In this document: positions 3,156-16,484 of the stretch, piece by piece
Numbering within the stretch: position 1 is the first letter of the stretch
Layout: every line of letters begins with the position of its first letter
Virus record (IMG/VR): IMGVR_UViG_3300023235_000094
Location: 1-30,341 of that record
Length of the DNA stretch: 30,341 nt
Source: a virus
Reading direction: 5' to 3' (one strand)
Notes under the pieces: model-generated
What the model was told of the DNA's origin: nothing
The model's database searches: none
What the model saw: the letters and a program-made list of their open reading frames with translations, nothing else
Translations under genes and position numbers: made by a program

Positions 3156-3551
3156 ATGATTAAGACAATTAACGTATACGATTTTAGGCAAGCGTTTAGA
3201 AATTATGAGGACAGACGCGACACGTTTAGCTACGGCGCCCTTGAATCAATTTTCGACTACCTAGAAGACACAGAAGACGAAACCAACCCGACAGAGTTAG
3301 ACGTTATATCAGTATGTTGTGATTTCACAGAATACGACAACGCATGGGACGCAATGATGCAATACCAACCAGAAGATATGCCTGTTGAGGGTGTTGAGGG
3401 TGATGACTTGCTAGAAATAGCAGAAAAAAATGAGCAAGCTGCACTTGAATGGTTACAGGAACGTACCACAGTGTTAGACGTTGAAAACATCAACCTAGAA
3501 GCGCCACTAATGGCGCCAATGCTTACAAGTATCGTAATCGCTAACTTCTAG
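3156..3551 (+). CDS. Acidic conserved phage protein, function unknown
   Basis: The 131-residue protein has the pattern DFRQAFRNYEDRRDTFSYGALESIFDYLE, then ELDVISVCCDFTEYDNAWDAMMQY. This resembles a common phage family of unknown role with a conserved 'DVIxxCCDFTEY' core. The C terminus is hydrophobic. The protein is strongly acidic, as often seen in DNA-mimic or host-takeover proteins, but that is only suggestive. It is followed 1 nt later by the gene at 3553. Confidence 0.75.
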   Translation: MIKTINVYDFRQAFRNYEDRRDTFSYGALESIFDYLEDTEDETNPTELDVISVCCDFTEYDNAWDAMMQYQPEDMPVEGVEGDDLLEIAEKNEQAALEWLQERTTVLDVENINLEAPLMAPMLTSIVIANF

Positions 3552-3552
3552 T

Positions 3553-3750
3553 ATGACTAAAAAACACTACGAAGCTATAGCAGCCATTCTAAAAAGCTAC
3601 GACATGTACACTGAGGAGGAGATGTACACCGCGCAAAGTATAGCGCGTGGACTCGCGGATTATTTTGCAACCGATAACAAGAATTTCAACCGTCGAATGT
3701 TCCTCACAGCCTGTGGGATACCCAACTACAGTTTAGACCTAGAGGAATAG
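3553..3750 (+). CDS. Small conserved phage protein, function unknown
   Basis: The 65-residue protein matches a recurrent small phage pattern: HYEAIAAILKSY at the N terminus, then ARGLADYFATDNKNFNRRMFLTACG. It is mostly helical. Its ATG lies 1 nt after the stop of the acidic protein upstream and there is no Shine-Dalgarno, so the pair is probably translationally coupled. An intrinsic terminator lies 43 nt after its stop. Confidence 0.75.
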   Translation: MTKKHYEAIAAILKSYDMYTEEEMYTAQSIARGLADYFATDNKNFNRRMFLTACGIPNYSLDLEE

Positions 3751-6948: not shown

Positions 6949-8120
6949 CGCGCGACGAACTACACGAGCAGCTCGGTCAGCTGCTCTACATCGAAGACAA
7001 AGGTATTGTTGATGTGGTGTGTGCCTCGATTATTGCCAACAGCATGAAGCTAGGCGACCCAGTGTGGCTGACTCTCATCGGTCCTTCATCTGGCGGGAAG
7101 AGTCAAATCATCCGTCCCTTTGCTGCTGCCACTAAAATCATCACCCGTATCGACGACATGACACCCAACACGCTTATGTCGGGTACCCTTGGTGCGGAGA
7201 ACTCATTGCTCGGGAGGATTGGCGCGCACGGTATCATCTCCATGGATGACTTGACTGTGTTGTTTAGCAAGAACGCCGAGGCGCGAGGTGAGATTCTATC
7301 CCAGTTCCGTATGCTGTACGACGGGCGCTTTGCCAAGAGCTCAGGTAACAGGAAGGAGGAGATGGTATGGGAGGGCTATCTAGGTATGATCAGTGGCTCT
7401 ACCCCTAGTATTTATCGCTACTTCGCAGAGGTAGCAGACATGGGTGAACGGTTTATTAACTACCGGATGAAACCCTTTGACAAGCACAAGGCCGTAGCCT
7501 TCATCAGTAACAACAACCTAACCTCAAAGGACCTGGATGCTCGAATAGCCGTCATCCTAGAGGAGTTTCTGGCTGAACGGTTGCAGGACGACAAGCAGTA
7601 CTGTGAGCTGTCCGATGAGGTAAAGGCAGTCATTGCCAACATCAGTGAACACTCGACCCTCATGCGTACCTCTGTCCACGTTGACGAGCGCTCTGGCTTT
7701 GTTGATGAGTTCCCGGAGCCAGAGATGCCGTTCCGTGTGATGAAACAGCTGACCAAGATAGCCGAGGCGCTACAGGTAGTGAACCGAGGACCGCTAACAA
7801 AGGAGCTGATTGCCACACTAGAGTGGACTGGCTGGAGCCTAGCTAACGACAAGCGCCGGGCGTATATGCGTCACCTAGTCGGGCTAGAGGACAGCGGTAA
7901 GCCCCTAACGAGTCGCAACATCAGTGCCTGCACGGGGCTAGAGACGAGTATCGTTAAGAAAGGGTTAGACCACTTGCAGGCCTTGGACGTTATCCGACTC
8001 AAGGATGAAGATGCAGCCGGGCAGAAGCGCTGGTACATCCACAACAAGGAGATAGCCAAAGTGGTGCGGCGCTTAGACCCACCCGATTATGACCAGTTAA
8101 AACTAATTGATGACGTATGA
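6945..8120 (+). CDS. AAA+-type ATPase with C-terminal winged helix (replication)
   Basis: The 391-residue protein has a Walker A GPSSGGKS at residues 46-53 and a Walker B GIISMDDLT at about 96-104, then FRMLYDGRFAKSSG and an arginine-finger-like region MGERFINYRM. This arrangement matches a family of phage and mobile-element ATPases (sometimes annotated as ATP-binding or helicase-loader-like) with the core 'LIGPSGGGKSE...KDFTxxL...LREIYDG'. Residues 320-370 form a probable winged helix (LTSRNISACTGLETSIVKKGLDHLQALDVIRL). It may be the replicative helicase or loader that works with the primase, a role inferred from position. ATGA overlaps on both sides. Confidence 0.75.
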   Translation: MTRDELHEQLGQLLYIEDKGIVDVVCASIIANSMKLGDPVWLTLIGPSSGGKSQIIRPFAAATKIITRIDDMTPNTLMSGTLGAENSLLGRIGAHGIISMDDLTVLFSKNAEARGEILSQFRMLYDGRFAKSSGNRKEEMVWEGYLGMISGSTPSIYRYFAEVADMGERFINYRMKPFDKHKAVAFISNNNLTSKDLDARIAVILEEFLAERLQDDKQYCELSDEVKAVIANISEHSTLMRTSVHVDERSGFVDEFPEPEMPFRVMKQLTKIAEALQVVNRGPLTKELIATLEWTGWSLANDKRRAYMRHLVGLEDSGKPLTSRNISACTGLETSIVKKGLDHLQALDVIRLKDEDAAGQKRWYIHNKEIAKVVRRLDPPDYDQLKLIDDV

Positions 8121-12669: not shown

Positions 12670-13920
12670 ATGTCCACATATAAAGACGAGATTGAAGCGT
12701 ACGTCAAAGCAAACCCTGGCTTATTTACCCGCCAGCAAATAGCAAAACATTTCAATAAACCCTATGACCGAGTTAGAAAAATAGCTACTGAGCGCAATCT
12801 TAGTAGCTTTTTTGATAGTGGTATAATTATGAAGGAAAGCTCATTAACACAGGAGGCTGTAATGACTGAACCAACTCGGGCGGATGTCAACAGGCTCCGT
12901 CAAATATGTGAAGAACGCGGATTACCCTTCGAGAAGTGGGGCATCTGGTGGGACAAGACCAAAGATTCTTCCATCGCTTTCTATAACAAGGAAGCGAAGG
13001 AAATCGAGGAAAAGTCCCAAGAAGAATTCTTGAAACGAATATCTAAAGCTGCACCTCGCATAAAGAAATCGCCTGTACCGACAAAGACACTGGCGATTGC
13101 AGCGAGCTTCGATGTACATATCGGCAAACATTGTGAACTGATACGTACTGGTCGCGAATATACGCCTGACATGGCCGTTAAGCAAGTCCTTGAAGGGCAA
13201 GCTGCATTGTTTGGACTCACTAAGCCGTTTGGTGTCACTGACATCTTGCTGCCAATGGGCAACGACGTTGTACACGTTGACGCTAACAACTCCAAGACTA
13301 CTGGTGGCACACCACAAGACGTATACGGGTCTATCGAATCACAGATGCTACTGGCAACTGAGATGTATATCCGTTCTATCGAAGGGTTTGCCGTCAATCA
13401 CAACGTCTGGCTGTGTCACGTACACAGTAACCACGATCGGGTAGCTGGCTGGAGCGTTAGCCAGATGGTCGCTCGATACTTCCACAACCACCCACGAGTA
13501 CATGCGGCTATTCCATCTATTGGACAGCATCACCGCAAGTACTTTGTGTTTGGTGACAGTCTTATCATGTTCCATCATGGTGAGGCGAAAGAAGAAAAGC
13601 TGCTCGGCGTAATAAAGGCAGAGGCAGGATTTGCCCTTGCTCAAACCAACCGAGTGTACGTCTACCAAGGTCACACGCATCACAAAACACTGAGTAAGCG
13701 TGGCTTAAATACCGAAATGGGTGTAGAAAAAGACCACTCATCTATGACGGTAATCAAGGCGGGTAATGGTGCAGTTAATCAAATGTATGTGGAGACTGTA
13801 CGCTCTCCATCCCCAGCAGATGATTGGCACAGTCAGAAACTGTTTCTTAACATGCCCGCTGTAGAAATGTTCATTCACAGCGACAAAGCCCAGTTTGCAA
13901 GGTTTACACACTGGATGTAA
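12670..13920 (+). CDS. Calcineurin-like metallophosphoesterase with N-terminal HTH
   Basis: The 416-residue protein begins with an HTH (LFTRQQIAKHFNKPYDRVRKIATERNL, about 18-44). The phosphoesterase domain shows FDVHIGKH (147-154), GNDVVHVD (197-204), HSNHDRV (252-258), FHHGE (301-305) and GHTHH (334-338), the five metal-binding motifs of calcineurin-like enzymes. The first motif has DxHxG and the GNHD motif is SNHD here. Phage homologues of this arrangement are common and mostly untested; a nuclease or DNA repair role (Mre11-like) is plausible. Near-monocistronic: own promoter and a terminator 7 nt after the stop. Confidence 0.8.
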   Translation: MSTYKDEIEAYVKANPGLFTRQQIAKHFNKPYDRVRKIATERNLSSFFDSGIIMKESSLTQEAVMTEPTRADVNRLRQICEERGLPFEKWGIWWDKTKDSSIAFYNKEAKEIEEKSQEEFLKRISKAAPRIKKSPVPTKTLAIAASFDVHIGKHCELIRTGREYTPDMAVKQVLEGQAALFGLTKPFGVTDILLPMGNDVVHVDANNSKTTGGTPQDVYGSIESQMLLATEMYIRSIEGFAVNHNVWLCHVHSNHDRVAGWSVSQMVARYFHNHPRVHAAIPSIGQHHRKYFVFGDSLIMFHHGEAKEEKLLGVIKAEAGFALAQTNRVYVYQGHTHHKTLSKRGLNTEMGVEKDHSSMTVIKAGNGAVNQMYVETVRSPSPADDWHSQKLFLNMPAVEMFIHSDKAQFARFTHWM

Positions 13921-13927
13921 AACTTAA

Positions 13928-13955
13928 ACCCCCCTCTTTGGAGGGGGGTCTTTAT
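13928..13955 (+). terminator. Intrinsic terminator
   Basis: ACCCCCCTC (13928-13936) and GAGGGGGGT (13941-13949) form a 9-bp stem with a TTTG loop, followed by CTTTATTT. Confidence 0.85.
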
Positions 13956-13973
13956 TTGTTTCTGATAATGGGG

Positions 13974-13988
13974 TATACTAGAGGGTAT
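13974..13988 (+). promoter_or_regulatory. Leaderless promoter of HNH gene
   Basis: TATACT (13974-13979) lies 9 nt before ATG 13989. No DnaA-like box is present; the region upstream is the terminator. Like the HNH gene at 8775, this one seems to carry its own promoter. Confidence 0.5.
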
Positions 13989-14534
13989 ATGAAATGGAAA
14001 CAAATACCACAAGTAGGAGGAAACTATGAATGTAATACAAACGGGGAAATCCGTAGGGTTCTAGGAATTGTAAAGTTCGGTAAACAAACAAGAAAAGTAG
14101 GAGGAAACGTTTTAAAGCCTAAGACTAAAAAAAATGGTTATCTTGAAGTTAACTTAACTGTAAGCAACACATCTAAAAGCTTTTACGTTCACAGGTTGAT
14201 AGCTGCGGCTTGGTTAGATATGACTACAAATAACTTGCAGGTAAACCATAAAGATGGTGACAAAAGTAACAACACAATTAGAAATCTTGAGGTTGTGACG
14301 CAGAGTCAAAACATGGTTCATGCGTATAAATTAGGTTTGATAAAACCTAGAAACTTTAAAGGTTCGAATCACCCAAACGCTAGAACTAACGAGGAAGAGG
14401 TTGTTAAAATAAGGCACGAACATACAAACCACCATAGTATAAAAAGATTGTTAATTGACTACCCGCATTTAACAAAACCTATTCTTACTAAGATAGTGTA
14501 CCGCGAAAGCTGGAAGCATGTGATAGTGCTATAA
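13989..14534 (+). CDS. NUMOD4-HNH homing endonuclease
   Basis: From ATG 13989 the protein has 181 residues. It has a NUMOD4-type start (MKWKQIPQVGGNYECNTNGE, then LKPKTKKNGYLEVNL), followed by the HNH core FYVHRLIAAAWL, QVNHKDGDKSNNTIRNLEVVTQSQNMVHAYKLG. The C-terminal part (GSNHPNARTNEEEVVKIRHEH) is the DNA-binding tail often seen with it. This is a clear freestanding homing endonuclease. Upstream in-frame starts are ignored because they precede the -10. Its end overlaps a TGC-TATAAT promoter for the next gene. Confidence 0.9.
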   Translation: MKWKQIPQVGGNYECNTNGEIRRVLGIVKFGKQTRKVGGNVLKPKTKKNGYLEVNLTVSNTSKSFYVHRLIAAAWLDMTTNNLQVNHKDGDKSNNTIRNLEVVTQSQNMVHAYKLGLIKPRNFKGSNHPNARTNEEEVVKIRHEHTNHHSIKRLLIDYPHLTKPILTKIVYRESWKHVIVL

Positions 14535-14561: not shown

Positions 14562-14735
14562 ATGTTCATCGGCAACCGTATCAAAATCACCTCAGAAGAA
14601 ACAACTAACTACGTGATACGGGACATACAGACCCAGGACCAGCTAGACAAGTACCGAGGGTTGGAGGGTTACGGTATAGAGGTGCTGCCAGTTATCCACA
14701 ACAACATGGCAGAGTGTGAGTCTTGCTCCGCTTAG
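14562..14735 (+). CDS. Small hypothetical protein
   Basis: The 57-residue frame begins MFIGNRIKITSEETTNYVIRDIQ, a segment like short uncharacterised phage proteins, and ends with a CESC pair near the C terminus. No Shine-Dalgarno is seen. The coding sequence near its end contains TTATCCACA (14692-14700), a perfect E. coli-type DnaA box, which may instead serve the promoter at 14741. Function unknown. Confidence 0.55.
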   Translation: MFIGNRIKITSEETTNYVIRDIQTQDQLDKYRGLEGYGIEVLPVIHNNMAECESCSA

Positions 14736-14746
14736 TAGTGTATAGT
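14692..14746 (+). promoter_or_regulatory. Promoter of structured RNA 1 with DnaA box
   Basis: TTATCCACA (14692-14700), 40 nt, then TG-TATAGT (-10 at 14741-14746). The distance is about one helical turn more than in the 30-nt promoters. No open reading frame with a usable start follows before the terminator at 14924. Confidence 0.5.
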
Positions 14747-14752
14747 GTTAGT

Positions 14753-14955
14753 AACCCAGTAGTGGTGTGTTTAACAGGCGTATGATGTATTAAGTCACCG
14801 TATGGTGTGCTAACCTTTATCTCGACAAGGGAGCGCCTGTCAAGCACAGCACACGAGCTAGGAGTTCTTAAAACACAATAGAATCTACATCCGACGACAG
14901 TGTGGAAGCTGTCACTACCATAGGGTCACACATAACGTGTGGCCTTTTGGTTTTA
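14753..14955 (+). ncRNA. Candidate structured noncoding RNA 1 (about 200 nt)
   Basis: A promoter and an intrinsic terminator bracket a stretch without a gene. Paired segments: GTGTG 14765-14769 with CACAC 14850-14854; ACAGGCG 14774-14780 with CGCCTGT 14834-14840; inside that, hairpins CACC/GGTG (14796-14807) and CCTT/AAGG (14814-14830), forming a three-way junction. Further on, GACAG/CTGTC (14896-14913) and the terminator stem. I do not recognise a known family. Ends are estimated from the -10 and the T tract. Confidence 0.55.
14924..14955 (+). terminator. Intrinsic terminator of RNA 1
   Basis: GGTCACAC (14924-14931) pairs with GTGTGGCC (14937-14944) with one G-U pair and a 5-nt loop, followed by TTTTGGTTTT. 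The T tract overlaps the next DnaA-like box. Confidence 0.75.
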
Positions 14956-16296: not shown

Positions 16297-16305
16297 TGGT
16301 ACAAT
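16297..16305 (+). promoter_or_regulatory. Extended -10 of structured RNA 2
   Basis: TGG-TACAAT, hexamer at 16300-16305, lies right after the preceding terminator. No DnaA-like box is seen at 25-40 nt upstream. Confidence 0.5.
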
Positions 16306-16311
16306 ATCCGC

Positions 16312-16484
16312 ACAAGCCAGTAGACTATTGTAGTAGGTAAGCTGGCTCGGTAGTGTGTTGAGTCTGTACTACAGCACTACTTAAATACCCGTGGTTGCAA
16401 CGAAGACCACCGCCCTCTGCAATAGAAATAGCGCAAGCGTCATACAGAACCCCTCGATAACGGCTACAACCGCGAGGGGTTTGA
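16312..16484 (+). ncRNA. Candidate structured noncoding RNA 2 (about 170 nt)
   Basis: No open reading frame fits, yet a promoter and terminator bracket this stretch. Stems: AGCCAG (16315-16320) with CTGGCT (16342-16347) enclosing ACTA/TAGT (16324-16334); GTAGTG (16350-16355) with CACTAC (16375-16380); GTGGT (16391-16395) with ACCAC (16406-16410); then the terminator stem. It mirrors RNA 1 on the other side of the zinc-finger operon but shares no obvious sequence with it. No known family recognised. Confidence 0.5.

Follow-up and report, generated by a model that had tools for sequence, protein, structure and literature searches.

A candidate structured small RNA gene with a conserved core in an IMG/VR virus and four related phage contigs

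The locus and its relatives

The stretch of DNA analyzed here, referred to as the window, is the 30,341-base virus record IMGVR_UViG_3300023235_000094. The candidate RNA sits between two small genes, in a small-gene region that comes after genes for a primase, a helicase, a recombination exonuclease, a nucleotide kinase and a metallophosphoesterase-type nuclease, and it directly follows a small ORF that served as a fixed landmark (Table 1). This ORF ranges from 57 to 61 residues across the RNA-bearing phages. Between the nuclease gene and the small ORF the window also carries an HNH endonuclease gene (13938-14534), which is absent from that place in contigs L003, L004, L006 and L013 and is probably a mobile insertion.

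Relatives were gathered by searching IMG/VR with the nuclease protein. Two of the contigs found, L001 and L002, are near-identical. Four others reach the same region, with nuclease proteins that are 94% (L003), 76% (L004), 64% (L006) and 35% (L013) identical to that of the window. No nucleotide relative of the window was found among 50,697 phage records, and the nuclease is less than 60% identical to that of every phage record. Genes downstream of the RNA vary among the relatives, while the RNA and its terminator remain side by side.

Table 1. Features of the RNA locus in the window and of its homologues in related contigs
Record	Feature	Position	Strand	Evidence or remarks
Window	Nuclease (metallophosphoesterase) gene near the RNA	12670-13920
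Window	Small ORF, 57 amino acids, C-terminal CxxC	14562-14735	+	Directly upstream in every homologous locus
Window	Compact gene-free transcription unit	14739-14954
Window	Predicted promoter, -10 box TG-TATAGT	14739-14746	+	Motif count and shuffles; box identical in L013 and L003; TATAGT in L004
Window	Proposed small RNA transcript, about 200 nt	14751-14954	+
Window	5' strand of P1 (CCCAG) and outer P2 (GUGGUGUGUUU)	14755-14772	+	Folds, consensus
Window	Variable arm tip: stem ACAGGCG/CGCCUGU with two hairpins	14773-14841	+
Window	3' strand of P2 and P1, invariant CGAGC	14842-14863	+	Consensus
Window	Linker	14864-14895	+	Window: AAAACACA...UCUACAUCCGA, drifted; relatives: GAAGCACA...UUACCUCCGA
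Window	Hairpin P3, hexaloop GUGGAA (GURGAA in relatives)	14896-14913	+	Two compensatory pairs
Window	Intrinsic terminator	14922-14954	+	Same place in L004/L013 and L006, different stem sequence
L003	Small-ORF homologue	7325
L004	Small-ORF homologue	4483
L006	Small-ORF homologue	2975
L013	Small-ORF homologue	4909
L004	RNA homologue, same plan as window	4672-4900		Fold z = -3.68
L006	RNA homologue, same plan as window	3172-3292		Fold z = -1.33, not significant alone
L013	RNA homologue, same plan as window	5098-5380		Fold z = -4.08

Promoter, terminator and fold of the RNA

An earlier note on this sequence had described about 200 nt without a gene, bracketed by a "box plus -10 promoter" and an intrinsic terminator. 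The interval indeed contains no ORF and the terminator is present at its 3' end; hairpins followed by a T-run also end the RNA in L004, L013 and L006. The promoter claim stood in part. The -10 element is there, but the upstream box could not be confirmed, as no -35 sequence could be recognized ahead of the RNA and a sigma-70 scan made no promoter call there. The motif TG(N)TATA(A/G)T occurs at 16 sites in the window, compared to 4.6 on average and never more than 9 across 30 shuffles, and most of these sites lie a few to about 35 bases ahead of a start codon. This excess and placement argue that the motif is very likely a promoter class of the phage that lacks a -35 box, and the phage thus seems, judging from its sequence, to use (extended) -10 boxes alone. 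A member of the class also stands ahead of the small ORF, and another ahead of the nuclease gene. Many stand so near the ATG that the messages look leaderless, and the class may help to identify the host group. From the usual spacing of a -10 box, the RNA is predicted to start at about 14751-14753, at the base of stem P1, and the anatomy of the region points to transcription from the TATAGT box to the terminator.

The RNA (14746-14955) folds at -70.8 kcal/mol, compared to -54.1 +/- 4.2 kcal/mol for shuffled sequences (z = -3.96), and none of 200 shuffles folded as low. Two long-range stems enclosing two hairpins, with two further stems behind them, had been proposed. The stem ACAGGCG/CGCCTGT pairs as described (14774-14781 with 14833-14840). 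GTGTG is also paired, but with GCACA (14842-14848) rather than CACAC, a small shift in register. Both hairpins of the arm and the terminator stem after it were recovered; the other 3' stem, P3, is supported through the relatives, since the window folded by itself pairs 14896-14913 differently at minimum energy. The window copy has a P3 that competes with another fold, as well as one mismatch in P1 and a linker without CCUCC.

Homologues and the conserved core

Homologues of the RNA were identified in four other phage contigs (L003, L004, L006 and L013), in each case directly after the same small ORF. In L004, L006 and L013 the RNA follows the plan of the window: a long P1/P2 arm, the invariant CGAGC, a linker, P3 closed by its GURGAA loop, and last the terminator. 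The 5' arm is gone from L003, whose remaining RNA is no better folded than shuffles (z = -0.7). The P1 strand, the linker and the hexaloop hairpin make up a core of 66 nt, from which we built a covariance model, R1 (66 positions), using the window and these four contigs. R1 scores 73.9-87.9 bits in these five distinct phages, which are its own training set, and nothing else exceeded 11 bits. Each whole contig searched holds one copy of the core; the L001 contig ends inside the RNA. In L008 the small ORF is present and no core was recognizable before the contig ends. A more distant relative with a small-ORF homologue, L012, gave no R1 match. After its small ORF L012 has a short promoter-terminator stretch (7640-7720) that lacks the core and may encode another RNA or a reduced one.

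Across the homologues the linker varies in length by 1-5 nt and no reading frame is shared in the core, and a coding reading was therefore rejected. A reading frame kept in the relatives, which the earlier note had named as evidence against a functional RNA, was not found. Compensatory changes, for their part, are present in both P3 and P2. P3 is fully paired (100% of cells) in the five sequences; two of its pairs differ on both sides and a third on one side. Slid controls of P3 gave no pair changed on both sides, and 26 of 500 shuffles reached the observed covariation counts, which are small because the distinct homologues number just five and are in part connected through recombination. In P2, the helix at the foot of the tip, several pairs are changed on both sides among the window, L013 and L004. 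The arm likewise varies in sequence but stays paired: four phages have it, and in each the 5' strand pairs best with its own 3' strand (window -29.9, L013 -36.4, L004 -30.5 and L006 -15.3 kcal/mol), all its mixed pairings with 3' strands from other phages being weaker. Small as these numbers are, they agree in direction.

The three-way junction named in the earlier note exists in the window but is not a conserved feature of the RNA. Its tip is the least conserved part: L004 has about 90 nt of unrelated structure in its place, L013 about 150 nt, and L006 nothing. The tip being unrelated or missing among the phages, the junction is the variable part of the RNA. In L003 a tip 97% identical to that of the window has been relocated about 200 bases downstream, onto a stem of about 26 bp in the leader of the next gene. 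This long branched hairpin (L003 7715-7855; z = -9.4), in the leader of a zinc-finger-like gene, could have been made by a template switch. L006 has a comparable long, branched hairpin within the leader of the same downstream gene (3545-3735; z = -3.5).

The comparison for selection was limited to L006, the sole homologue with clearly diverged surroundings. The L006 core shares 60-72% identity with the other cores, compared to 38-50% for the adjoining small ORF and 34-46% for fourfold sites of the nuclease gene. A similar comparison with L013 was dropped: its nuclease is the most divergent, yet its accessory region is close to those of L004 and the window, so that recombination explains its likeness. 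In L013, L004 and L006 most of the linker is unpaired; in L003 part of it is paired, and in the window it has drifted and is also partly paired. As it is mostly unpaired in those three, helices do not explain its conservation, which suggests that the linker is a contact site. Between the window and L003 the small ORF is 95% identical and the cores only 74%; the window RNA may be drifting or may have switched to another partner.

No known family was matched in the Rfam covariance-model search that the earlier note had put forward as a check. At the gathering threshold there was no match in the window or L013, and at relaxed E-values the window, L013 and L006 regions gave only chance-level matches (E of at least 1). 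ARAGORN predicted no tRNA or tmRNA genes in the window, and blastn against phage and plasmid records returned no real match. Degenerate patterns of the core, scanned against IMG/VR, yielded apart from the known relatives only unrelated sequences, with no backing from the covariance model or from inspection. Neither the nuclease protein nor the core pattern gave a match among 85,000 prokaryote genomes in GTDB.

Possible roles of the RNA

The promoter, the terminator, the homologues in four other phages, the compensatory changes and the lack of an ORF give good support to a dedicated structured noncoding RNA, as the earlier note had proposed, and we regard it as highly probable that this is a real, structured phage RNA gene. 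As to its working, we tentatively favor, at somewhat less than an even chance, a stand-alone small RNA gene whose product acts in trans through the conserved linker; the trans action is our inference. Transcription would begin just past the TATAGT box and end at the intrinsic terminator, giving an RNA of roughly 200 nt. The P1/P2 arm, with a tip free to vary, would secure the 5' end in a stable stem and would be followed by the linker, single-stranded in most relatives, the GURGAA hairpin and the terminator. The linker, perhaps together with the GURGAA loop, would make the contact with the partner, either an mRNA, through base pairing, or a protein; the CCUCC core of the linker could pair with ribosome-binding sites. 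Arm and terminator would supply stability, and the tip would be under weak or diversifying selection. When the linkers were compared with 22 start regions of phage genes, none performed better than its shuffles (18-96 of 100 shuffles were equally good).

Trans-acting small RNAs are in general short transcripts with their own promoter, an intrinsic terminator, no ORF and a single-stranded conserved stretch. Phage- or prophage-encoded examples are the Pas small RNAs of E. coli prophages (PMC13192938). Judging from its sequence, the candidate has the promoter, the terminator and the lack of an ORF in common with such RNAs, together with a conserved stretch that is mostly single-stranded in L013, L004 and L006; it differs from them in its large variable arm and in having no sequence match in Rfam. 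In size and in its junction of helices it also resembles the phi29-type pRNA, a phage RNA. Unlike that RNA, however, the candidate has no Rfam match, ends in a terminator and lies among small accessory genes; the analysis of packaging genes in the window, which is a partial genome, covered a weak match to a small terminase. GOLLD and ROOL are ornate structured RNAs of unknown role associated with phages and known from environmental and phage sequence (PMC12286853); they are far larger than the candidate, which again has no Rfam match. The RNA is a new family within a known class. Little is known about small RNAs of phages whose hosts are uncultured. The present one is a clear family, with its anatomy and homologues described and its core defined, and it has a second RNA as neighbor; it provides a case that can be tested and as yet settles no question.

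The RNA might instead be a structured 3' UTR of the 57-amino-acid gene, on an mRNA that runs from a promoter at 14527 through the ORF to the terminator, and there protect or regulate the message. The RNA always stands directly behind the small ORF, a promoter stands ahead of that ORF, and ORF and RNA are common to L006, L003 and the window despite changes in their other neighbors. However, a second TATAGT box lies between ORF and RNA in the window, L013, L003 and L004, with the predicted 5' end at P1, and L012 has a homologue of the small ORF without such an RNA. We consider the 3' UTR unlikely, at perhaps half the weight given to a separate small RNA, although the two products are not mutually exclusive.

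The variable tip invites another reading, in which the core is a scaffold and the phage-specific tip meets a host factor, as a decoy or anti-defence RNA. A host-targeting or anti-defence role had been raised in the earlier note and may hold. The tips have no relation to one another among the phages and are nevertheless structured, the same tip recurs almost unchanged in L003 on the long hairpin ahead of the next gene, and the RNA is located in a variable region of small genes. L006, however, keeps the core without any tip, and neutral drift explains a freely varying tip equally well. It is accordingly improbable that the RNA is a decoy, and just as improbable that the family has a fixed core and an exchangeable tip by which each phage shows the host a different structure, for example a decoy for a nuclease or defence protein. 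If the tip is functional, the RNA would be modular, with parts that phages swap.

A separate small RNA acting through its linker could have the nuclease message as its target, the linker pairing with the start region of that gene and repressing its translation. In L003 the nuclease start is the best linker site near a gene, and this pairing is striking, extending over 18-19 positions at -31.9 kcal/mol and matched by only 2 of 1000 shuffled linkers; L006 and L004 show a weak advantage over their shuffles (13 and 20 of 1000, respectively). It was not reproduced in the window or L013, where the linkers do not surpass their shuffles (223 and 179 of 1000). Moreover, the stretch that would pair includes the -10 box of a gene that looks leaderless, and may itself lie outside the mRNA; shuffles of the L003 linker reach a nearly equal site somewhere in 13 kb (mean best -29.3 kcal/mol); and the target was chosen after the fact. 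We therefore regard this target as quite improbable. Regulation of the adjoining operon, another suggestion of the earlier note, likewise found no steady support, the pairing of the L003 linker with the nuclease start not being kept in the relatives. Least likely is a DNA element, such as a recombination or replication site of inverted repeats: the tip and arm of L003 are rearranged into an almost perfect long hairpin, but the core is conserved on one strand and in an unpaired linker, promoter and terminator flank it in the same orientation, and the changes in P3 are of the kind that keeps pairs.

A second promoter-terminator unit without a gene lies nearby in the window (16297-16484). It has no match in Rfam, and its fold has a z of -2.2. 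Its predicted promoter box, TGGTACAAT, is a close variant of the TG(N)TATA(A/G)T class; it ends in a strong terminator and is 86-94% identical in L003, L004 and L013.
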